61,979 bases of DNA from IMG/VR virus record IMGVR_UViG_3300027985_000277, positions 1 to 61,979 of that record. One strand, given 5' to 3'. Within the stretch, counting starts at the first letter, position 1. Each line of letters starts with the position of its first letter. Under the pieces are notes generated by a model. That model searched no databases and was not told the origin of the DNA. It was given only the letters and a program-made list of their open reading frames with translations. A program made the position numbers and the translations under genes. This DNA is from a virus. Below are positions 1 to 61,979 of this stretch, one piece after another.

Positions 1-65
1 GTGTTCATCCTAGCGCACCCCCTCGCGGAGTTGCTTTTCGGGTAGGCCCTCGTTCTCCCCTATAT
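1..65. repeat. Left copy of 65-bp terminal direct repeat
   Basis: Bases 1-65 are identical to bases 61915-61979. The first 45 bases are the last 15 codons (ending in TAG) of the small membrane gene that is complete at the right end. The repeat shows that the sequence closes on itself, either as a circular assembly printed with overlap or as a true short direct terminal repeat; the sequence alone does not decide. Confidence 0.95.
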
Positions 66-3384: not shown

Positions 3385-3671
3385 GCAATACGTGCCAAGT
3401 GTGGGTGTACCGGCGCGACAACCCCTGGGCCAAGGACCCGCGTTGCGGCAAGAAGTCCAAGGATGTGCCGGACAACCCGGAGGGGCTGTGCGGCATCCAC
3501 CTACGGCAGCGCAACGAGGAGGCCCGCAAGGAGAAGGCCCTGATCGATGAGTTCGCGGCCTATGGGGTGGACGTGTACCCCCAATACTGGAACGGCAAGT
3601 ACGACCTGACGAGCGTGACGGTGAGAACTGACGTGCTGCGCCGCCTGGTGCAGAAAGGAGAGCAGAAGTGA
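3381..3671 (+). CDS. Hypothetical protein with Cys/His cluster
   Basis: GTG 3381 overlaps the previous stop. In 96 residues the N-terminal third has CQVWVYRRDNPWAKDPRCG and LCGIHLRQR, a possible zinc site (C, C, C, H), followed by a charged helix and a C-terminal helix (VRTDVLRRLVQKG). It ends with AAAGGAG and GTGA, coupling it to the next gene. Confidence 0.6.
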   Translation: MSNTCQVWVYRRDNPWAKDPRCGKKSKDVPDNPEGLCGIHLRQRNEEARKEKALIDEFAAYGVDVYPQYWNGKYDLTSVTVRTDVLRRLVQKGEQK

Positions 3672-3799
3672 GCAACGAACGTAAGTGGGACCGGCCCGAA
3701 TACACGCCCCGGCAGGTGCGTGCGATTGCCAGCGGAAGGCTGGACCCGCGCAAGCTGAACGCCCAGCTACAGGCTGCGGGCAAAGGGGTGTGGTACTGA
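3668..3799 (+). CDS. Small basic hypothetical protein
   Basis: A 43-residue basic protein (EYTPRQVRAIASGRLDPRKL) with GTG 3668 in a GTGA overlap and AAAGGAG eight bases ahead. The stop is followed directly by the ATG of the next gene. Function unknown. Confidence 0.6.
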   Translation: MSNERKWDRPEYTPRQVRAIASGRLDPRKLNAQLQAAGKGVWY

Positions 3800-3967
3800 A
3801 TGGCCGTTGCAAGCCGAAATATCACGGTGACCCTGAAACTGGATGAGGTTGAAGCCCGAGCCGTGCTGCGGGCGCTGCGCTGGTACGGTGGTCCCTCCGG
3901 CCCGGATGTGGGACCGCACAAGCAGGCGAAGGATGTACGAGAGACGTTGGAAGGAGTGCTGGAATAA
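3800..3967 (+). CDS. Small protein of the LKLDEVEA paralog family
   Basis: A 55-residue protein starting at ATG 3800 directly after the previous stop. It has the pattern ITVTLKLDEVEARAVLRALR, a beta strand followed by a helix, that recurs in other small genes here (5035, 5304, 13854, 15429). The stop TAA is shared with the next ATG (TAATG). Function unknown. Confidence 0.6.
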   Translation: MAVASRNITVTLKLDEVEARAVLRALRWYGGPSGPDVGPHKQAKDVRETLEGVLE

Positions 3968-4311
3968 TGCAAATGCAGGTACAGGCAAAAGACGCGAGGA
4001 AAGACGACGTGATCGACTTCGGCGGCCAGCCGTTCACGGTCGCTGAGACCGACCTGCACCCCTACCAGCACCTCTGCCGTGGACTGCTGTACCTACGCGG
4101 AAGCATCCATGGGCTGGGCTACACCTCATCGATCACCATCGACGTGGACACCCCCCTGAACGTTCAGCGCCCCGACCCTGACGCCGAGCTGATCGAGGTC
4201 ATGGCGAAGGCGATTGATAGGCGGGGATGGGATGAGAGTGCGGAGGTCTTCAACGAGATGGACGCCGCCCGTGCCGCCCTCGCTGCCGCCAGAGAGGCGG
4301 GCCTGCTGTGA
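3967..4311 (+). CDS. Hypothetical protein with C-terminal helical tail
   Basis: A 114-residue protein with a beta-rich middle (VIDFGGQPFTVAETDLH, HGLGYTSSITIDVDT) and a helical end (DAELIEVMAKAIDRRG, then AARAALAAAREAG). The helical tail resembles those found in several small phage proteins of this type. ATG 3967 is in a TAATG junction; the gene ends in GTGA. No function assigned. Confidence 0.6.
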   Translation: MQMQVQAKDARKDDVIDFGGQPFTVAETDLHPYQHLCRGLLYLRGSIHGLGYTSSITIDVDTPLNVQRPDPDAELIEVMAKAIDRRGWDESAEVFNEMDAARAALAAAREAGLL

Positions 4312-9246: not shown

Positions 9247-9428
9247 CTAACTTGACCCCTGACGATGCGGGGCGGCGTGTCCTGGTGAACAGTGCTGTGG
9301 TGGGCGTTCTTGAGTCCACCCCGCACCCCGCCGTGTACTCGCATTGGCTGCTCAAGGAGACCCACAGAAATAGCGGTTGGTCGTTCCAAGTGCTGTATCT
9401 CGATGACGTTGTGGAGGAGGTTCTGTGA
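9228..9428 (+). CDS. Hypothetical protein
   Basis: A 66-residue protein from GTG 9228 (or 9225) behind GGGG. It contains LTPDDAGRRVLVNSAVVGVL and an acidic end (VLYLDDVVEEVL). GGAGG near the end serves the next gene. Function unknown. Confidence 0.55.
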   Translation: MAGRTVANLTPDDAGRRVLVNSAVVGVLESTPHPAVYSHWLLKETHRNSGWSFQVLYLDDVVEEVL

Positions 9429-9649
9429 ATTTTCCTGGATTGCCGGAAGGCTATTTCTGGCGTGTGAAGAAGACGTGGGGCCTCGCAGGAAATGTTACTG
9501 TTCAATTGAGGAAATCATTTGGACCATTCTCCTATTGCATTTCCGACGCAATAGTGGAGCCCCGAGACGTAGTTTTGGGGGCGACAAATGCCAAACAGAA
9601 GTGGGACAATTCCAAACGCATCCCAGAGGTGTTGGGGGACTACCGATGA
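9425..9649 (+). CDS. Hypothetical protein
   Basis: A 74-residue protein, GTG 9425 in a GTGA overlap with GGAGG ahead. It contains GYFWRVKKTWGLAGNVTVQL. Base composition is a little richer in A and T than its neighbours. Function unknown. Confidence 0.55.
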   Translation: MNFPGLPEGYFWRVKKTWGLAGNVTVQLRKSFGPFSYCISDAIVEPRDVVLGATNAKQKWDNSKRIPEVLGDYR

Positions 9650-10914
9650 GCAACAAGTACGAGATTTTGGGTGAGCGTAACTACAGTCTCAAGGTTGTGA
9701 AGGTGCGGCAACTTGTTGAGTTGCCCGGGCTGGACAACCTGCGCGGTGTCCCCGTGGATGGCTACATGGCGCTGGTATCGAAGGATACCCCGCTTGGTGG
9801 GCTCATGGTGATGTTCCCGGCAGAGTGCCAGATCGCACCCGAGTTCGCGGCTATGAACAACCTGTACCGGGACGTGACGTTGAACGACGGCGATGCCGTG
9901 GGCTACTTGGAGAAGTCTGCCCGTATCCGGGCCATCAAGCTGCGCGGGCATGTATCAAGCGCGCTGCTGCTGCCCGCGTGGGAGCCAGACATGGCCGAGG
10001 GCCTTGAGTTCGATACGATCAACGGTAAGACGCTCTCGTGGAAGTACGTCCCGCCCATCCGGCGCGGGGCCAACCCGGCACAGGGGGCTGCTCAGCGTAA
10101 GGTGTGGAAGCGCGTGGACGCGAAGTACCTTCCCGAACACCCAGACACGGCTCAGTACCTGCGTGAGCAGGACAGCATCTCCGACGATGCCTGGTTCGTG
10201 GTGTCACAGAAGCTGCATGGCACCTCCGTCAGGTTTGGGCGGACTGTGGTGAAGCGCCAACTCAAGTGGTACGAACGGCTGTTGGTCAAACTCGGTGTGC
10301 CGGTGAGCGACCACGAGTACGACCTGATCGCAGGATCTCGGAAGGTCATCAAAGACCCCAAGAGCACCACGCAGAATCATTGGTACTCAACTGATCTGTG
10401 GACCAGTGAAGCGCTCAAGTACGCCGACCTGATCCCGAGCAACGTCGTGGTCTACGGCGAGTTGATCGGGTGGGTTCCGGGCACAAGCACCCCCATACAG
10501 AAGAACTACACCTACCAGGTTCCAGTGGGCGAGTGCCAACTGTGGGTCTATCGCGTGAGCATCGTGACTGAGGACGCCAAGCAGTACGACCTTGGGGACG
10601 CCGCCATGCGCGAGTTCTGCGGGGCCCGTGGCCTGAACGTGGTTCCGAAACTCTGGGAGGGGTACAAGCAAGGATTCGAGGTTGAGCGTTGGCTGGACCA
10701 ACGATTTGCCGACATGGTTTCGGAGCGATGGATGTGGGGCTCTCCTGTGCCGCTTGCCAAAGAAAGCCCTGTGGATGAGGGCGTGGTTGTCCGAATTGAG
10801 GGCATCCTCCCCCGATTTTTCAAAGCGAAAGGCCCCATTTTCTATGCGCATGAAACCGCGCAACTTGACGGTGGTGAGGCTGACCTTGAGACAGAGGGCA
10901 GCACTGAAGGCTGA
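9646..10914 (+). CDS. RNA ligase, Rnl5-like
   Basis: A 422-residue ATP-dependent ligase. The lysine motif I is KLHGTS (about residue 190), motif III/IIIa is VVYGELIG (about 275), motif IV is DEGVVVR and motif V FFKAKG (about 390-400). An N-terminal region of about 170 residues, probably an OB fold, precedes the catalytic domain, an arrangement known for the Rnl5 family. The next enzyme gene is a polynucleotide kinase/phosphatase, so the pair can heal and seal cleaved tRNA. I chose ATG 9646 in an ATGA overlap. Confidence 0.85.
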   Translation: MSNKYEILGERNYSLKVVKVRQLVELPGLDNLRGVPVDGYMALVSKDTPLGGLMVMFPAECQIAPEFAAMNNLYRDVTLNDGDAVGYLEKSARIRAIKLRGHVSSALLLPAWEPDMAEGLEFDTINGKTLSWKYVPPIRRGANPAQGAAQRKVWKRVDAKYLPEHPDTAQYLREQDSISDDAWFVVSQKLHGTSVRFGRTVVKRQLKWYERLLVKLGVPVSDHEYDLIAGSRKVIKDPKSTTQNHWYSTDLWTSEALKYADLIPSNVVVYGELIGWVPGTSTPIQKNYTYQVPVGECQLWVYRVSIVTEDAKQYDLGDAAMREFCGARGLNVVPKLWEGYKQGFEVERWLDQRFADMVSERWMWGSPVPLAKESPVDEGVVVRIEGILPRFFKAKGPIFYAHETAQLDGGEADLETEGSTEG

Positions 10915-11029
10915 ACTGGTGCAGGCTTGGAACGACTTGACCGTGGACGAGAAGTTGGCTATGCTCAAGTCAGTGCCAAACTTGTACTGGAGGTTGGCTT
11001 GGTTCATAGCGAGGGAGGGCAACAGGTGA
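10871..11029 (+). CDS. Small hypothetical protein between ligase and kinase
   Basis: A frame of about 52 codons from GTG 10871, reading AALKAELVQAWNDLTVDEKL and NLYWRLAWFIAREG. The first 45 bases lie inside the ligase gene. It ends in a GTGA overlap with the kinase gene. Helical; function unknown. Confidence 0.5.
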   Translation: MVRLTLRQRAALKAELVQAWNDLTVDEKLAMLKSVPNLYWRLAWFIAREGNR

Positions 11030-11904
11030 CACTGCACTTGATGAGGGGCATCAGCGGCAGCGGGAAGACCACGTACGCTAAGGCGCTGGATGCCGTGCGG
11101 ATCAGCCGTGACGACATCCGGGCTGAACTGACTGGGCGCAGTGACAAGTTTGCGGGCGACTTCAAGTTCGAGGCCAAGGTGACGCGCATTGAGCAGGAAC
11201 GCGTACGCAACCTGCTGGTGCAGCGCAAGGACGTGGTTGTGGACGACACCAACCTGGTGCTCAAGCACGCCCGAACTTGGGCCAACATGGCGAACGACTA
11301 CGGCCACGACTTCGAGGTGCACGACCTGAACGTGGGTGTGTCGGTGGCTGCGGCCCGCAATGCTGAGCGTGAAGACGGGGTGCCTGTAGAGGTGATCTAC
11401 AAGCAGGACTCCCGAGCTTGCTGGGACGCTATTGTGGCTGACGCCACGCACCCGTTCGTGGACTGGAGCCCGGTGGAGGTTGACTACAACCTAGAGGACA
11501 TCGTGACGTGCGATATTGACGGCACGCTGGCGATTTTGGCGGACGGTTTCAGCCCCTACGACCCCGCTCATTACCCGTACGATGGTCTCAACCGATCCGT
11601 GTTCGCTGCTGTGTGGGCCATGCAGGGCGCAGGGTACCCGCTCGTGTTCCTGTCGGGACGCGACGAGGGCGGGCGACAGGAGACGTACCGGTGGCTGATG
11701 GACACCCAGTTGGATGTGTCTGAACTGTTCATGCGCAAGGCCGGAGACACCCGCCGCGACGACGTGGTGAAGGTGGAGATGTTCAATGAACACATCCGGG
11801 GCAAGTACAACATCGTGATGCATTTCGATGATCGCCAACGTGTAGTCAATGCATTGCGGGCAATCGGGGTTACCGTGTTTCAGGTTGCTGAAGGAGATTT
11901 CTGA
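11026..11904 (+). CDS. Polynucleotide kinase / 3'-phosphatase
   Basis: A 292-residue two-domain protein with the T4 Pnkp layout. The N-terminal P-loop GISGSGKTT (residues 8-16) and SRDDIR are the kinase site. A HAD phosphatase starts at CDIDGT (about residue 164), with VFLSGRDE and HFDDRQRV as later HAD motifs. It prepares RNA ends (5' phosphate, 3' hydroxyl) for the ligase encoded just before it. GTG 11026 is in a GTGA overlap. Confidence 0.88.
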   Translation: MTLHLMRGISGSGKTTYAKALDAVRISRDDIRAELTGRSDKFAGDFKFEAKVTRIEQERVRNLLVQRKDVVVDDTNLVLKHARTWANMANDYGHDFEVHDLNVGVSVAAARNAEREDGVPVEVIYKQDSRACWDAIVADATHPFVDWSPVEVDYNLEDIVTCDIDGTLAILADGFSPYDPAHYPYDGLNRSVFAAVWAMQGAGYPLVFLSGRDEGGRQETYRWLMDTQLDVSELFMRKAGDTRRDDVVKVEMFNEHIRGKYNIVMHFDDRQRVVNALRAIGVTVFQVAEGDF

Positions 11905-15432: not shown

Positions 15433-15599
15433 ACGTCTACCCTCAGCACGGCCCAGACCCCAAGGTGGTCGTGGAGATGTCCCCGGAGGAAGCTTATCGG
15501 TTATCGGACATTCTCTACGACTCTCCTGAGTCTAAGCAGTTTGATTGGTACTTGATTGATCGAATTGCACTGGAACTAATGGAAGGAAACAATGGCTGA
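15429..15599 (+). CDS. Small protein of the VEMSPEEA paralog family
   Basis: A 56-residue frame from ATG 15429 (overlap) to TGA 15597-15599. It carries KVVVEMSPEEAYRLSDILYD, the recurrent strand-helix pattern. GGAAGGAAAC near its end is the ribosome binding site of the Sak4-like gene, whose ATG at 15592 lies inside it. Confidence 0.6.
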   Translation: MNVYPQHGPDPKVVVEMSPEEAYRLSDILYDSPESKQFDWYLIDRIALELMEGNNG

Positions 15600-16350
15600 A
15601 ACTAGCCCAGACGAGTTCGATTTGGACTCAGTGTTGTCCAAGTATGTGGTGAAGCCGGTGGCTTCGGCCAAGCCGGAACTGCTCATGTTCTATAGCCCTC
15701 CTGGTTCGGGCAAGACTTGGCTGGCAGCATCTGCCAGCGAACTGCCCGGGGTCAAGAAGGTGCTCTACCTTGACATCGAGGGCTCCACGGTCGGCACACT
15801 GGGGTCGTTCGACCCAAAGAAAATCGACATCATCGAGGTTTACAAGCACCCTGACCCGTTTGCATTCGCCAACACGGTCCTTACCAAACTCGGTGACCCC
15901 GCTGCCAAGCACAGCTACGATGTGGTGGTGATCGACACCTTCGACACCTTGCAGGATCTGTCGATCAAGGCGTTCGACTCCAGCGACGGTTGGGAAATGT
16001 GGCGGGACGTGAAGGACTGGTCAACCGATATCGCCAAGATGCTCAAGCGCATCGCCCCTCTCGGCATCCTTGTGGTGCACGACCGGGAGGAGAAGTCCGA
16101 ATCCGGTGCTGTGGTGGCGCGACTGCGGTTGGCCGGTGCTGCCAAGGACATCCTTCCGGGCATCCCGGACGTGGTGGCCTACCTTGAGCGCAAGATCGAC
16201 AAGGAGGACGGCGAGGTGCATACCTACGCCTACTTCGAGAACTCGAACAAGAAAGTGACGAAGAACAGGTTCGGCTTCCCGCCCATCGTGAAGGACGTGA
16301 CGCTGGTGAACCTGTGGAAGTACATCGACAAGAAGGGAGAAGGTAAGTAA
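15592..16350 (+). CDS. Sak4-like RecA-fold ATPase
   Basis: A 252-residue P-loop protein. Walker A is PPGSGKTW (residues 36-43), Walker B is VVVIDTFDT (about 112), and VVHDREEK is a later motif. This compact RecA-like layout fits Sak4-type single-strand annealing or recombination ATPases of phages. The following gene encodes an ssDNA-binding protein and the two are translationally coupled by TAATG. Confidence 0.85.
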   Translation: MAETSPDEFDLDSVLSKYVVKPVASAKPELLMFYSPPGSGKTWLAASASELPGVKKVLYLDIEGSTVGTLGSFDPKKIDIIEVYKHPDPFAFANTVLTKLGDPAAKHSYDVVVIDTFDTLQDLSIKAFDSSDGWEMWRDVKDWSTDIAKMLKRIAPLGILVVHDREEKSESGAVVARLRLAGAAKDILPGIPDVVAYLERKIDKEDGEVHTYAYFENSNKKVTKNRFGFPPIVKDVTLVNLWKYIDKKGEGK

Positions 16351-25810: not shown

Positions 25811-26040
25811 CCATTGGCTACGGTACGTTCGTACCTCGTAAGGGGGCACACCGGCATATCTACGGCCCAGTGAAGCGCACAACTGTGTTCACTTTCCAGG
25901 CTCCGTTGTGTGGTACGGTAAAGTGGTCGCTGCAACGCCTGAACTGTTGGGATTCCTTTTATCTTGACTACGAAACGAAGCAGGAGGCGGCACAGACGGC
26001 CACCTGCCCCAAGTGCTTGAGGAAGGCCCAACAGTGCTGA
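25807..26040 (+). CDS. Hypothetical zinc-motif protein
   Basis: A 77-residue protein from ATG 25807 (ATGA overlap) with LCGTVKWSLQRLNC and a C-terminal CPKCLRKAQQC. The Cys spacing suggests a zinc ribbon. Function unknown. Confidence 0.55.
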   Translation: MTIGYGTFVPRKGAHRHIYGPVKRTTVFTFQAPLCGTVKWSLQRLNCWDSFYLDYETKQEAAQTATCPKCLRKAQQC

Positions 26041-26525
26041 CCACCCTACTGGCTATCGACCCCGCAGCCGCCCGCCCTGTGTCCAGCACCGGGTGGGCCT
26101 TCTGCACATACTCCGACACTGAAGCTTTCGCTGTCGTGCAGTCTGGAGTGGTGAACGGAGGCTTCACTGGGTTCCGGGATGACCCCAACATCCACCGCCT
26201 CTTGAACGCTGCAAACACGGTTGTATGCGAGAAGTACGTTCCCTATAAGGCCGCTGACCCCAGCCCCATGATGATCGAGGGCATAGTCAGCTTCGTTCGT
26301 CCCGATACGGTTTTTCAGCCCGCCACAGGAAAGAACAACTTGGCTCCAGACGTTCTCCTTAAGGCGCTTGGCTTGTGGTCAACGTCGGGACACCACAGAG
26401 ACGAGTTGGAAGCCCGCCGACACGCCTTAGTGTATTTGCTGAAACAGGAGCACCTGCCCACTCTCGAATTGGTGCGGAAGGCGTACTCTACTACTGGACC
26501 TGCCGAGCGGCGAGCCACAAAGTAG
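26034..26525 (+). CDS. RuvC-like Holliday junction nuclease
   Basis: A 163-residue RNase H-fold protein. LLAIDPA at the start gives the first catalytic Asp, VVCEKYVP the Glu, and RDELEARRHALVYL the final acidic/His cluster, the order found in phage RuvC-like resolvases. It would resolve recombination or packaging junctions. It is the last gene of the rightward arm; its 3' end overlaps the convergent tail gene by 35 bases. Confidence 0.75.
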   Translation: MLTTLLAIDPAAARPVSSTGWAFCTYSDTEAFAVVQSGVVNGGFTGFRDDPNIHRLLNAANTVVCEKYVPYKAADPSPMMIEGIVSFVRPDTVFQPATGKNNLAPDVLLKALGLWSTSGHHRDELEARRHALVYLLKQEHLPTLELVRKAYSTTGPAERRATK

Positions 26526-49047: not shown

Positions 49048-49193
49048 GTCCCCATGTTAGCACGCCACTCGTACAACTTGTCTCCGTAGTAAGCAGTGTG
49101 CGTTCCCGGATGATTGGGTGACGCGGAGCACAGCACTTCCTGCAATCCGCTCGTGCCGCTCAACCATATTCGGCTCAAGCACTGATCACACAC
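49044..49193 (-). CDS. Small Cys-containing protein between endolysin and holin
   Basis: A 49-residue frame from GTG 49193, overlapping the endolysin stop in another frame and ending in ATGA with the holin gene. It begins MCDQCLSRIWLSG and continues LQEVLCSASPNHPGTHTAYY. The CxxC, Cys, His set could bind zinc. Perfect coupling to both neighbours supports it. Function unknown. Confidence 0.55.
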   Translation of the reverse strand: MCDQCLSRIWLSGTSGLQEVLCSASPNHPGTHTAYYGDKLYEWRANMGT

Positions 49194-50508
49194 ATTGGAT
49201 CGGGATGTTGACGGCGGTGATGACCAGCGCGTGATCGGAGCCGCTGGACGGCTTCACGTTGTAGCCGCGCCAGTCGACCGGGGTCAGGCTGTCCGAGTGG
49301 ATGCGGTCGGTGATCGCCTTGCCCTGGTAGGTCTTGGCGTCGCGGGTGCCGCTGTTCGCTGCCTTCTCGCGTGCGTCGTCCCAGCCGGGCAGCCAAGCGT
49401 TGTCGTTCACGCCGTCGCCACCAAGGATGCGCGGACCCTGACCGAACTTCCGGATCGCTGCGATCATCTGCGACATCTGCGAACGCTGCTGGGCGTCCGT
49501 GCTGCGGCTGTTCGGCGTCAGGTGGTAGGAGCCGAACACGACCTGCTGGCCGGTGCTCTTGTCCTTCAGCACGCAAATCTGACCGCCCTGGTAACTGATG
49601 CCCTTGAAGTTCACCTCGGTCTCAGCGGTCTCGGTGAGCCGGTCGGAGTCCCACATGATCGCCTGTGCACCACGGGGACGGACCAGCCAGCGAGAGGCAC
49701 CGCCCGGCATGGCGGCGCGCAGCGGGTCGCGGATCACCTCAGGGCATTCGTTGAGCAGGTAAACGTCAGCCTTCGCCTTCACAGCCGTCTTGCCGAGCGC
49801 GGCGGCACGGGAGGCGGTCAGCGGCTTCGAGCCGGTCAGTGCGGGGTCCATCGTGTTGAAGGTGGCGACCCGCAGAGCGAGCACGGTGGCAGGCGTGGGG
49901 GTGGGGTCGGGGGTCGGCTCGGACCACTCGGCAATCTTCGCCAGCACGTCGGCCCGCACGCTGCCCATGTCGTCACCGGGGTCTCCCGGCTTGCGTCGGG
50001 TCAGTTCCTTGTGGGCAATCACCCGTGCACCGTTCGTCCAACCCTCGGCAATGTGCAAAGCGGCACAAACCTCCACTACATGCTTGCGAACAATGGGGGT
50101 CCATTTCCCTGTGCCGTCTGCCTCGATACCCCACCCGTGTCGGTTCCCCGACCACGAGCCATCACTTGCCGGAGGTTTGACTTCCGATGTCAGTTTGCCT
50201 TCCTTAGCGAGACGCCAATTGTCGTATCCGCCGTAACCAACATCATTCGTGTACCCGTCCGCCATCACGTAGATGTTTCCAGACTGCCCCACCAAAATGT
50301 TGGCGAGTGGGCCGGGAAGATTGCTTCGCCCACTGCGAATTACTCGCAGTGGGGTGGATACGTCTCCCGTGTGATGAACGTAGCATACTTCCGGAACAAG
50401 GGGGGTTCGCGATGCTTCTCGCCCCTGCCAACCGCTGTCCATGATAACGTGCGTGCCGTGAGATTCGAGGATCGCGACAGCCTTCTTCAGGACTTCGGAG
50501 TTAGTCAT
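49186..50508 (-). CDS. lysA: Endolysin: amidase fused to EEP nuclease/phosphatase domain
   Basis: A 440-residue protein. Residues 35-190 are a PGRP/Amidase_2 domain (YVHHTG; RHGWGIEADGTG; IAHKELTRRKPGDPG with the zinc His), which would cut peptidoglycan at the muramoyl-L-alanine bond. A Pro/Thr linker (PTPDPTPTPATV) follows. Residues 213-440 form an endonuclease/exonuclease/phosphatase (DNase I-like) domain: ATFNTMD, YLLNECPEV (Glu), GSYHL (His), GGDGVNDN (Asp) and GSDHALV (Asp-His). Usual endolysins end in a wall-binding domain instead. The C-terminal part looks more GC-rich than the amidase part. No signal peptide is present. Confidence 0.85.
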   Translation of the reverse strand: MTNSEVLKKAVAILESHGTHVIMDSGWQGREASRTPLVPEVCYVHHTGDVSTPLRVIRSGRSNLPGPLANILVGQSGNIYVMADGYTNDVGYGGYDNWRLAKEGKLTSEVKPPASDGSWSGNRHGWGIEADGTGKWTPIVRKHVVEVCAALHIAEGWTNGARVIAHKELTRRKPGDPGDDMGSVRADVLAKIAEWSEPTPDPTPTPATVLALRVATFNTMDPALTGSKPLTASRAAALGKTAVKAKADVYLLNECPEVIRDPLRAAMPGGASRWLVRPRGAQAIMWDSDRLTETAETEVNFKGISYQGGQICVLKDKSTGQQVVFGSYHLTPNSRSTDAQQRSQMSQMIAAIRKFGQGPRILGGDGVNDNAWLPGWDDAREKAANSGTRDAKTYQGKAITDRIHSDSLTPVDWRGYNVKPSSGSDHALVITAVNIPIQCV

Positions 50509-51049: not shown

Positions 51050-51778
51050 CTATTTTACCAAATCTCCCTTGAACCATGTTTTGCAATCCTGGCACTGCAA
51101 GCGATGGTAAGTACGTACATTGGTGTATTGCTTACCGCGCTTCTGAATATGCGTACTTCCGCAGTTGGGGCACCCTCCAGTGCGGTCCACCAAGCCCACA
51201 TTGATCGCGTTGGCTCCGCTGAGCAAGGGTTTGTAAAGTTCGTACAGCGGGGGTAGCAGGGCCGTGTCGTGCTTGCAGTACCGCTTCATGGTTTGCCACG
51301 CTGAGCGCTTTGCTTCAGAGTCCACCCACGGGGCAATACAGTCCACCCACATCTGGAATCCTTGGTGGGGGAGTTTGCGCTCATTGAGGTACCGATTCAC
51401 CTGGTACTGGAGCTTGCCGGAGATGTGCTTCATCTTTCGCTGCACTTGGAACAAGTCGATATGGCGCACATCGGGCGGAAGGTCGATGCCCTCCAACATG
51501 CACTCGGCCACCAGCCACGGCAAGTCGAAGGACTTCCCGTTGTAGGTGAGGATGGCATCAGCCTCAGCCACAAGGTCTCGCAGCCGGGTGAGCATGGAGA
51601 TGCGTCCGTCCTCATACTCGGAGGCGAACATTACCTTCTTGCTGCCCACCCACTGAGCGGACCAGCAAATCATGCGGTCAGCTTCTACGATATGGTCAGG
51701 GCCGATGAAGGGTTTGAAGAGGGAGAAACTGTAGACTAATGCAGGCGCTGTCTCGATATCAAATGCAAGAAGCTTCAC
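51050..51778 (-). CDS. DnaQ-like exonuclease with C-terminal zinc ribbon
   Basis: A 242-residue protein. LLAFDIETAP (residues 3-12), LTYNGKSFDLP and RYCKHDT carry the DEDD exonuclease residues. The C-terminal 40 residues form a zinc ribbon, GGCPNCGSTHI and LQCQDCKTW, like those at the ends of transposase InsA proteins. It would degrade or proofread DNA, using the ribbon for binding. The start is GTG 51778, overlapping the endonuclease VII stop. Its first 12 codons are a recoded copy of those left at 52505-52555. Confidence 0.82.
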   Translation of the reverse strand: MKLLAFDIETAPALVYSFSLFKPFIGPDHIVEADRMICWSAQWVGSKKVMFASEYEDGRISMLTRLRDLVAEADAILTYNGKSFDLPWLVAECMLEGIDLPPDVRHIDLFQVQRKMKHISGKLQYQVNRYLNERKLPHQGFQMWVDCIAPWVDSEAKRSAWQTMKRYCKHDTALLPPLYELYKPLLSGANAINVGLVDRTGGCPNCGSTHIQKRGKQYTNVRTYHRLQCQDCKTWFKGDLVK

Positions 51779-52500
51779 TTACTACTCCATTTGTTAAGGT
51801 AAGAAACCATTTTCCGAAGAAGATCAATGGATTCCCCCACCGACCCCAATACTTGATTACATCGCTGGCACAGCAGGCCACGAACACATTCTCCACAAGA
51901 GAGTCTACTGGGGCAACACTTGTGGTCATGATCTACTGCCAGTCTCTTATGCTCGTCTTGTCCTCCACAGATCGCACACACCCCCTCCTGTTCGGCCAAA
52001 GTGGCTCCGTACCACTCCGGGGGCACGCCGTAAGTCCGAGAGATTTTGGTGCCGTGAGACTGAACAGAGGCTTTTCGTCTTTCCTCTGCTCGACAACTTT
52101 TACACTCTGTTCGTAGCCCGTCAACTGCTCTTTGGCTGGACCCGAAGAACTCCTCTGTCTTCCATTCTCGGCAACGTACACATCGTTTGCGCCCCTGATC
52201 GTCTCTTCGGGTATAAGAATAACGCTCTGCTTGAGATCCGTACAGTGGTTGTAATGTACGACCTTGCTTCTGCTGCCAACGGTGGGCAGAGCAAAGCCCA
52301 TAACTTACAGAGTAATTGCGACACCCCTCGAAATTACAGGGGGTTTCTCCCGCTCTGATTGTGGCTCTCCGAGCGGGGCGAAAAGGCTCACCACGTCTGA
52401 ATTGTAGATAGTGCGCGTTGCAGAGTAGTCGTGTTTGGTTGATTGCCTTCCGACCGCATGGAACGCCGTCGAACACGAGGTGACACTGAGGAAGATCCAT
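51775..52500 (-). CDS. Recombination endonuclease VII-like homing nuclease
   Basis: A 241-residue protein. The C-terminal HNH/ββα-metal site is CAICGG, LAVDHDH, RGLLCQRCNQVLG, the endonuclease VII pattern, with paired cysteines for zinc. The N-terminal part holds further Cys/His pairs (CGRKAINQTRLLCNAH, CNFEGC...CSAH) that could be DNA-binding fingers. It sits at the 5' end of the exonuclease gene and looks like a free-standing homing endonuclease that inserted there. Confidence 0.82.
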   Translation of the reverse strand: MDLPQCHLVFDGVPCGRKAINQTRLLCNAHYLQFRRGEPFRPARRATIRAGETPCNFEGCRNYSVSYGLCSAHRWQQKQGRTLQPLYGSQAERYSYTRRDDQGRKRCVRCREWKTEEFFGSSQRAVDGLRTECKSCRAEERRKASVQSHGTKISRTYGVPPEWYGATLAEQEGVCAICGGQDEHKRLAVDHDHKCCPSRLSCGECVRGLLCQRCNQVLGSVGESIDLLRKMVSYLNKWSSK

Positions 52501-52504
52501 AAGT

Positions 52505-52555
52505 CTAGTGGGTTATACTCGGTGCGGTTTCGATGTCGAACGCCAGCAGTTTCAA
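52505..52555 (-). pseudogene. Truncated original 5' end of the DnaQ-like exonuclease gene
   Basis: Read from TTG 52555 the frame gives KLLAFDIETAPSITH and then TAG. The first 12 residues equal the start of the intact exonuclease at 51778, but ten of eleven compared codons differ by synonymous changes (only ATC is shared). GAGAGG stands seven bases ahead. The stop is four bases before the endonuclease VII ATG, so the stub may now serve as a leader cistron for that gene. Confidence 0.75.
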
Positions 52556-52604
52556 GGGTGTGCCTCTCTGAGCAGATGAACTTGTACTACCTTACCACGG
52601 GGGT

Positions 52605-54912: not shown

Positions 54913-55266
54913 CTACCCTACCTTCCGGGTACGGGTCAAGTCACATTGAGCACATCTTGTACCTTGTTTACGTGGGTGGCCATTGCGGCACAACAGGCGG
55001 TACTTGCGACTCTCGTTCTCCTGTCGGGTCACTGGCTCCAGGTGGTCGGGGTTCACACGCCACCGGTTCTTGCAGCGGTGGTCCAGTTCCAAGCTAGTGT
55101 CAAAGCCATGCAGGGCGTGGTATCCGTACCGGTGGGCCTGCCAGACTCTTCCTTCCGCTTTGATCTGACCGTAGCCGTCGCGGTCCCGGTAGCCCAGCCA
55201 CAACAGGCATCCGGTGGGCAGCAACAGGGTTTTGGCCCACCACCTATCGAGCGTGGTTGCGGGCAT
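54913..55266 (-). CDS. HNH endonuclease
   Basis: A 117-residue protein from ATG 55266. It has the HNH core LELDHRCKNRWRVNPDHLEP followed by VTRQEN, and a C-terminal zinc pair (LLCRNGHP, CAQC). The size and plan fit small free-standing homing HNH nucleases of phages. Confidence 0.8.
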   Translation of the reverse strand: MPATTLDRWWAKTLLLPTGCLLWLGYRDRDGYGQIKAEGRVWQAHRYGYHALHGFDTSLELDHRCKNRWRVNPDHLEPVTRQENESRKYRLLCRNGHPRKQGTRCAQCDLTRTRKVG

Positions 55267-55513
55267 GTCGAAATGCATAGTCCACGGCCTGCCGCCAGAA
55301 CCAGAATGATCCCAGCCACTCGCCCTCCGGGTCGTTCACCACCCAGAGCCCATAGTTGCCGTGGGGTCGGCGCACCGTGTACTTGTTCGGTGTCCACTCG
55401 ATCACTCCAGCACTACAGGACTTCGGGAACCGGCAGCACTTCGGGTCGTACTCACCGCTGAAACAGCCGGACCACTGGGCCACGCATTCAGGGTCGCGCT
55501 TGTCGATCAGCAC
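55244..55513 (-). CDS. Hypothetical Cys-containing protein
   Basis: An 89-residue protein with a Cys cluster (DPECVAQWSGCFSGEYDPKC, then C) near the start and a Trp-rich second half (GEWLGSFWFWRQAVDYAF). It overlaps the exonuclease stop by one base. Function unknown. Confidence 0.55.
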   Translation of the reverse strand: MLIDKRDPECVAQWSGCFSGEYDPKCCRFPKSCSAGVIEWTPNKYTVRRPHGNYGLWVVNDPEGEWLGSFWFWRQAVDYAFRHARNHAR

Positions 55514-61864: not shown

Positions 61865-61959
61865 CGCAGCGGGAGTTTCTGGAGGCTGTCGCGGTGGGGT
61901 GCTTGTGCGTGCTCGTGTTCATCCTAGCGCACCCCCTCGCGGAGTTGCTTTTCGGGTAG
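61861..61959 (+). CDS. Small membrane protein at the genome junction
   Basis: A 32-residue frame with one membrane helix (VGCLCVLVFILAHPLAELLF). Its last 45 bases are repeated at positions 1-45, so on a circular or concatenated genome it leads directly into the AT-rich palindrome and early leader. Confidence 0.6.
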   Translation: MTQREFLEAVAVGCLCVLVFILAHPLAELLFG

Positions 61960-61979
61960 GCCCTCGTTCTCCCCTATAT
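61915..61979. repeat. Right copy of 65-bp terminal direct repeat
   Basis: Identical to bases 1-65. It begins within the last small membrane gene and ends at TATAT, the start of the AT-rich palindrome that is complete only at the left end. Confidence 0.95.

Follow-up and report, generated by a model that had tools for sequence, protein, structure and literature searches.

What could leave a phage with two beginnings of one exonuclease gene, standing on either side of a nuclease gene and spelling the same residues with different codons? The question is raised by a locus in an IMG/VR virus contig, of which the whole 61,979-nucleotide stretch analysed here is called the window. The explanation that we favour, with moderate confidence, is that the 5' coding region of the phage exonuclease gene is the seat of a cassette with a free-standing homing endonuclease, which supplies the gene with a replacement 5' end.

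Organization of the locus

On the minus strand of the window, a 16-codon open reading frame (52555-52505), here called the stub, is followed by an endonuclease VII gene of the HNH type (52500-51775, 241 aa) and by an intact gene for a DnaQ-like 3'-5' exonuclease, a DNA polymerase exonuclease subunit (51778-51050, 242 aa), the locus lying upstream of holin, amidase, and terminase genes. The stub consists of TTG, 15 further codons (LKLLAFDIETAPSITH), and a stop, and reads TTG AAA CTG CTG GCG TTC GAC ATC GAA ACC GCA CCG AGT ATA ACC CAC TAG. A Shine-Dalgarno-like AGAGAGG, read off the sequence at 52563-52569 (minus strand), lies 7 nt before the TTG and is presumed to be the native ribosome-binding site of the exonuclease gene. 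The nuclease ATG follows 4 nt past the stub TAG, and no Shine-Dalgarno sequence was found upstream of it. With a nuclease start that close to the stub stop and lacking a ribosome-binding site of its own, and a stub that has a good one, this arrangement suggests that the nuclease is translated by reinitiation after the stub stop. The exonuclease, whose N-terminus is VKLLAFDIETAP, starts with a GTG that overlaps the nuclease stop TGA by 4 nt (GTGA), and a Shine-Dalgarno-like GGAG, also read off the sequence (51785-51788, minus strand), lies 6 nt upstream of it within the 3' end of the nuclease gene. The stub is probably a relic of the native exonuclease 5' end and a leader for the nuclease. A sequence-only reading of this DNA had assigned the feature to 51050-52555; position 51050 is the end of the exonuclease gene, and the two starts themselves lie at 52555-52505 (the stub) and 51778-51743 (codons 1-12 of the exonuclease, the replacement or "recoded" 5' end).

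The two ends of the contig (window positions 1-60 and 61920-61979) have about 55 nt in common, as expected for a complete or circularly assembled phage genome. Elsewhere in the window, a second HNH endonuclease gene (phrog_826) is found at 54913-55278 (minus strand), and the Amidase_2 amidase encoded at 49186-50508 (minus strand) has a C-terminal part of about 240 residues in which an endonuclease/exonuclease/phosphatase fold is seen by eye (ATFNT, LNE, GGDGVND, SDHALV; no Pfam match). An RNA ligase gene followed by a polynucleotide kinase gene forms an RNA-repair pair at 9292-11904 (plus strand). A small protein encoded at 26013-26525 (plus strand) has, by eye, a RuvC-like N-terminus (LLAIDP...TGWAF), again with no Pfam match; if it is a resolvase, endonuclease VII would be unnecessary in that role.

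The nuclease and exonuclease proteins

Both proteins look functional, since conserved positions are intact in each: Cys, DHDH, and Asn in the nuclease, and D, E, D, Y, and D in the exonuclease. The nuclease matches the profiles PF02945 (E=8.9e-21) and phrog_2633 (E=1.8e-34), and its conserved residues (C175, C178, D190, H191, D192, H193, C205, C211, and N215) include the zinc cysteines and catalytic DH/N of an HNH-type core. This core, with its conserved Cys, DHDH, and Asn, is what it has in common with the PF02945 family of T4 gp49 (endonuclease VII), from which it differs by extra Cys-rich repeats at the N-terminus and by the gene context of a homing element. Its best fold matches are to T4 endonuclease VII, although weak (E=0.014), and a sequence search against solved structures gave no match. 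The exonuclease matches phrog_403 (E=1.6e-63) and also PF13482, with D7, E9, D85, Y167, and D171 conserved. The closest relative of the nuclease (129 bits; L002:759-2761) overlaps by 4 nt the start of a different large gene, by eye probably a terminase gene, and this type of nuclease is therefore found before different genes.

The nuclease belongs to a known homing nuclease class (HNH/endonuclease VII) and stands outside any intron or intein, as the sequence-only reading had held. Insertion of a group I intron or an intein was rejected as an explanation: Rfam searches detected no intron in the window locus or in the L120 locus described below, and the exonuclease is complete and uninterrupted downstream.

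Two starts that encode the same residues

The claim that the stub and the intact exonuclease begin with the same residues in different codons is borne out. Residues 2-12 (KLLAFDIETAP) are identical at 11/11 positions, and 10 of the 11 codons differ, ATC being the sole codon in common. At the DNA level, the two versions of this 33-nt stretch agree at 23/33 positions, and a repeat finder run on the locus did not detect the duplication. The codon differences somewhat exceed what codon usage predicts, with 4.1-4.5 matches expected and a probability of 0.02-0.03 for at most one match. Past this stretch, stub residues 13-16 (SITH) do not match those of the present exonuclease (ALVY).

No exact coding match to KLLAFDIETAP was found in 11.3 million genome contigs, and a relaxed pattern retrieved only two loci from 2.9 million viral contigs, both KILAFDIETAP. 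A scan of about 600,000 pairs of start codons, drawn from the window and from the loci that were fetched, gave N-terminal identity of at least 6/7 in five cases. Two of these pair a nuclease with an exonuclease, one in the window and one in L120, and the remaining three were judged by eye to be repeats, low complexity, or related ORFs. A start-anchored rescan of exonuclease loci from IMG/VR recovered two further cases, L120 and L083. Over 216 distinct exonuclease loci with 15,523 start codons, six matches of at least 5/7 were obtained. Three of these are the window, L120, and L083; the other three, none of them a nuclease gene immediately ahead of the exonuclease, set the background rate at about 3 in 15,500 start codons (about 2 in 10,000). 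The pair scan and this background rate rule out chance N-terminal resemblance. The sequence-only reading had named relatives carrying both copies but no nuclease as evidence against it; in the 216 exonuclease loci, no stub without a nuclease was seen. The two starts would appear to descend from two full-length exonuclease genes, because a non-coding peptide would not hold its protein sequence while its codons change.

Codon composition identifies a likely native start

Codon composition offers a way to ask which of the two starts is resident. The stub has a GC3 of 0.73, like the exonuclease body, and exonuclease codons 2-14 have a GC3 of 0.31 versus 0.74 afterwards (change point at codon 13-14, P=0.053), a shift that selection on initiation can also yield in AT-rich gene starts. 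A cumulative score of codon usage towards that of the nuclease peaks at exonuclease codon 13 (permutation P=0.0026). The same test on 17 other phage genes found none alike, the next lowest P being 0.07, and general 5' AT-richness was rejected as the cause, since these genes do not show it. With a stub and an exonuclease body that are phage-like and first ~13 codons that are nuclease-like, the stub looks resident and the exonuclease 5' end looks imported with the nuclease.

The sequence-only reading had held that the insertion brought the replacement 5' end. Composition speaks for this claim, but the window has no uninserted relative with which to back it: none close to the locus was found in phage records (at the DNA level), viral contigs, or species genomes, and the terminase relatives of the window have exonucleases at only about 32% identity. 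Calling the locus a "clear trace" of a free-standing homing endonuclease was therefore overstated, although the layout and the lack of an intron agree with that description. At the other endonuclease VII loci fetched, no convincing stub was found. The comparison with nuclease-free relatives, for which the window itself provides none, was obtained in the L120 sister case, and there it indicates that the upstream start is the native one.

Sister cases with unrelated nucleases

Two further loci have nucleases that start with the first 5-7 residues of the exonuclease, encoded by HNH genes unrelated to the window nuclease. In L120, an I-HmuI-like gene (HNH_3 plus NUMOD; 3537-4001) begins MKILLLD-YSV and overlaps by 4 nt an intact exonuclease gene beginning MKILLLDIES. 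In L083, a gene at 3645-4004, whose product has no Pfam match and is assigned to HNH by a motif seen by eye, begins MKLLV-SDA and precedes, with a 4-nt overlap, an exonuclease beginning MKLLVIDIET; its duplicate is short, with one synonymous difference and no close relative for comparison.

The L120 site is polymorphic, the nuclease being present in L120 and absent from L102 and L161-L163. The exonucleases of nuclease-free L102/L161 are 94% identical in protein to that of L120, and 10 synonymous changes fall in codons 2-17 (10/16) versus 21% elsewhere (P=0.0009), with the caveats that this is a single pair, that the distance of the L120 5' end from relatives besides L161 is unexceptional, and that several nuclease-free pairs also have somewhat raised 5' synonymous divergence. 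The first 16-codon segment of L120 is in the top 0.9% for synonymous divergence, and near identity returns sharply past codon 17. The 32 nt that precede the exonuclease in L161 can be aligned with those preceding the nuclease in L120 (P=0.004-0.006), but not with the 32 nt ahead of the L120 exonuclease (P=0.97). Moreover, the 21-nt stub of L120 is 20/21 identical to the start of the exonuclease gene in L163 and in L168, both of which lack the nuclease. Since the upstream flank of the nuclease-free relative matches the nuclease start and not the exonuclease start, this indicates that the upstream start of L120 is native and that the exonuclease's own 5' end has been replaced.

A homing cassette and its alternatives

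In the homing explanation, the mobile unit would be the nuclease gene together with a replacement 5' end for its target. The nuclease would cut a nuclease-free exonuclease gene near the conserved catalytic DIET codons, and repair of the break would copy the donor. The ribosome-binding site, the start codon, and the first codons would stay those of the recipient, as the stub, the nuclease gene and the donor's differently spelled 5' end would go in, and the outcome would be a chimeric exonuclease gene whose start codon overlaps the nuclease gene. The stub would then act as a leader for nuclease translation and provide the left homology arm in a further round of homing, and the replacement 5' end should withstand cutting. 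The native start would be captured either by in-frame fusion, as in L120 and L083, or by stop-and-restart, as in the window. Cleavage, mobility, resistance, and reinitiation are what we infer of such a cassette from these features. In its favour are the architecture, the recurrence with unrelated nucleases, the composition change within the exonuclease, and the replaced 5' end of L120. Against it stand the lack of an uninserted close relative of the window locus in the collections searched, the phages RIO-1 and phiL7, which have endonuclease VII directly upstream of the exonuclease with no stub, so that the adjacency can be that of an old operon, and the SITH/ALVY mismatch, the exonuclease otherwise looking like one lineage along its length, as if wholly foreign.

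These last points also belong to the main alternative, possible but rather unlikely, in which the resident exonuclease was exchanged, by recombination at its start, for a ready-made endonuclease VII-exonuclease pair of another phage, with the stub left behind. The codon differences would then be ordinary orthologue divergence, and the nuclease would be a recombination or resolving enzyme, not a homing one. An overlap of endonuclease VII with the beginning of this exonuclease is seen in RIO-1 and phiL7, with lysis genes just downstream in RIO-1, as in the window, and in L128 a T7-type endonuclease I precedes the exonuclease with a 4-nt overlap. The SITH of the stub resembles another exonuclease type, and exonucleases that agree at 11/11 start residues may share no more than 50-70% identity over their whole length, enough for synonymous sites to be saturated. 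Operon import is disfavoured by an exonuclease body that is phage-like in codon usage behind first ~13 codons that are nuclease-like. The window nuclease, moreover, is not close to the RIO-1 type (35 bits by tblastn versus 129 bits for L002), and L120 and L083 have the same plan with unrelated HNH genes, the body of the L120 exonuclease being clearly resident. As proof of whole-gene replacement, the SITH-versus-ALVY mismatch is not decisive: of 75 divergent pairs with the same residues 2-12, 5 have mismatches at each of the four positions that follow.

Unrelated nucleases (endonuclease VII, T7-type endonuclease I, and HNH) repeatedly occupy the site just before this exonuclease, as at L128:3603-4004, L069:2564-3004, L073:2544-2939, L065, L088, L157, and L318. 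The site is either a homing hotspot or else that of a resolvase-exonuclease operon.

A second alternative, which we consider improbable, explains the codon differences by stability and not by immunity: an identical 5' repeat would recombine the insertion out, and only divergent duplicates would survive. The 33-nt duplicate is just 23/33 identical and invisible to the repeat finder, and the phage encodes a Sak4-like annealing protein (15592-16350), both of which speak for it. Yet the duplicate in L083 is short and almost unchanged, although recombination between repeats this small is infrequent, and selection for stability is compatible with the homing explanation rather than opposed to it. It is extremely improbable that the exonuclease genes of two strains were joined in metagenomic assembly, or that the stub is a fortuitous short ORF: the source contig comes without reads for inspection, but the independent contigs L120 and L083 have the same plan, chance N-terminal matches occur at about 2 in 10,000 starts, and the overlaps and ribosome-binding sites are well formed.

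Relation to known mobile elements

The kind of element proposed here, a nuclease with a replacement target end and a displaced native end, is already known in fungi. In the WHO elements of the yeasts Torulaspora and Lachancea, the nuclease cuts a sensitive FBA1 allele and repair installs the nuclease gene with a resistant FBA1 end, the old end being displaced as a fragment that provides homology when the element next moves; that study tested both cleavage and allele-specific resistance (Coughlan et al. 2020, PMC7282813). As in our explanation of the phage locus, the mobile unit is a nuclease gene plus a resistance-conferring target end, the target is rebuilt as a chimera at each integration, the native end is left as a fragment, and there is no splicing (PMC7282813). 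The WHO elements have their own features, namely the yeast nucleus, an intein-derived nuclease with a zinc finger, FBA1 as the target, and replacement of the 3' end (PMC7282813), whereas the phage locus has an HNH/endonuclease VII nuclease, an exonuclease target, a replaced 5' end, and a start codon that is taken over. The combination of nuclease, duplicated target end, and displaced native fragment is present in the window locus, at the 5' end. A chimeric target is suggested in the window by a composition change point, and comparison with a nuclease-free relative supports it for L120 only. The WHO mechanism, mirrored to the 5' end, is the closest described mechanism and would account for every feature of the locus. 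Because its nuclease is a PF02945 endonuclease VII, neither intein-derived nor fused to a zinc finger, we say that the phage locus works like a WHO element, not that it is one.

T4 mobA with the gene 60 bypass sequence is a phage example of a nuclease cassette accompanied by a target-gene change that protects from cutting; there, protection comes from an inserted ribosome-bypass sequence and not from a recoded duplicate. In the part of a review of the T4 Seg and Mob nucleases cited here, stand-alone nuclease genes likewise adjoin essential genes and have targets that encode catalytic residues, 6 of the 12 lack a discernible translation initiation region, 5 overlap an upstream ORF, and translational coupling is suggested, whereas that part does not describe a duplicated, recoded target start (PMC2988022). 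Mobile ORFs of fungal mitochondria (Allomyces atp6; Glomus atp6, atp9, cox2, and nad3) also combine an endonuclease ORF with a duplicated target end and a displaced native end, and the C-termini that they bring diverge from the native ones in DNA while the protein stays similar; they differ in replacing the C-terminal end, in using LAGLIDADG or GIY-YIG nucleases, and in being mitochondrial (PMC3630166). A search of an open-access library turned up no description of such an element in a phage, of one that acts at the 5' end, or of a target start codon being captured.

Implications

We give about even chances to the broader proposal that phages harbour recurrent "start-capturing" homing elements, in which unrelated HNH nucleases settle in the first codons of a polymerase exonuclease gene, appropriate its start codon together with the ribosome-binding site, and bring a synonymously recoded 5' end that resists cleavage and restores the target gene. 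If true, nature would have in this class an equivalent of engineered cleave-and-rescue drives, one that has converged at the 5' end on the plan of the yeast WHO elements. The locus resembles a natural recoded-rescue drive, and the sequences predicted to be cut and to be resistant are directly testable. Start capture could also account for short residual ORFs and for unusual N-terminal fusions of annotated HNH genes. More generally, the locus suggests how an intron-less selfish nuclease can occupy a conserved replication gene and leave its host alive: it would borrow the start of the target gene and give back a replacement. The same solution is found at the 3' end in yeast nuclei and fungal mitochondria, and a 5'-end version in phages would make the strategy a general one.
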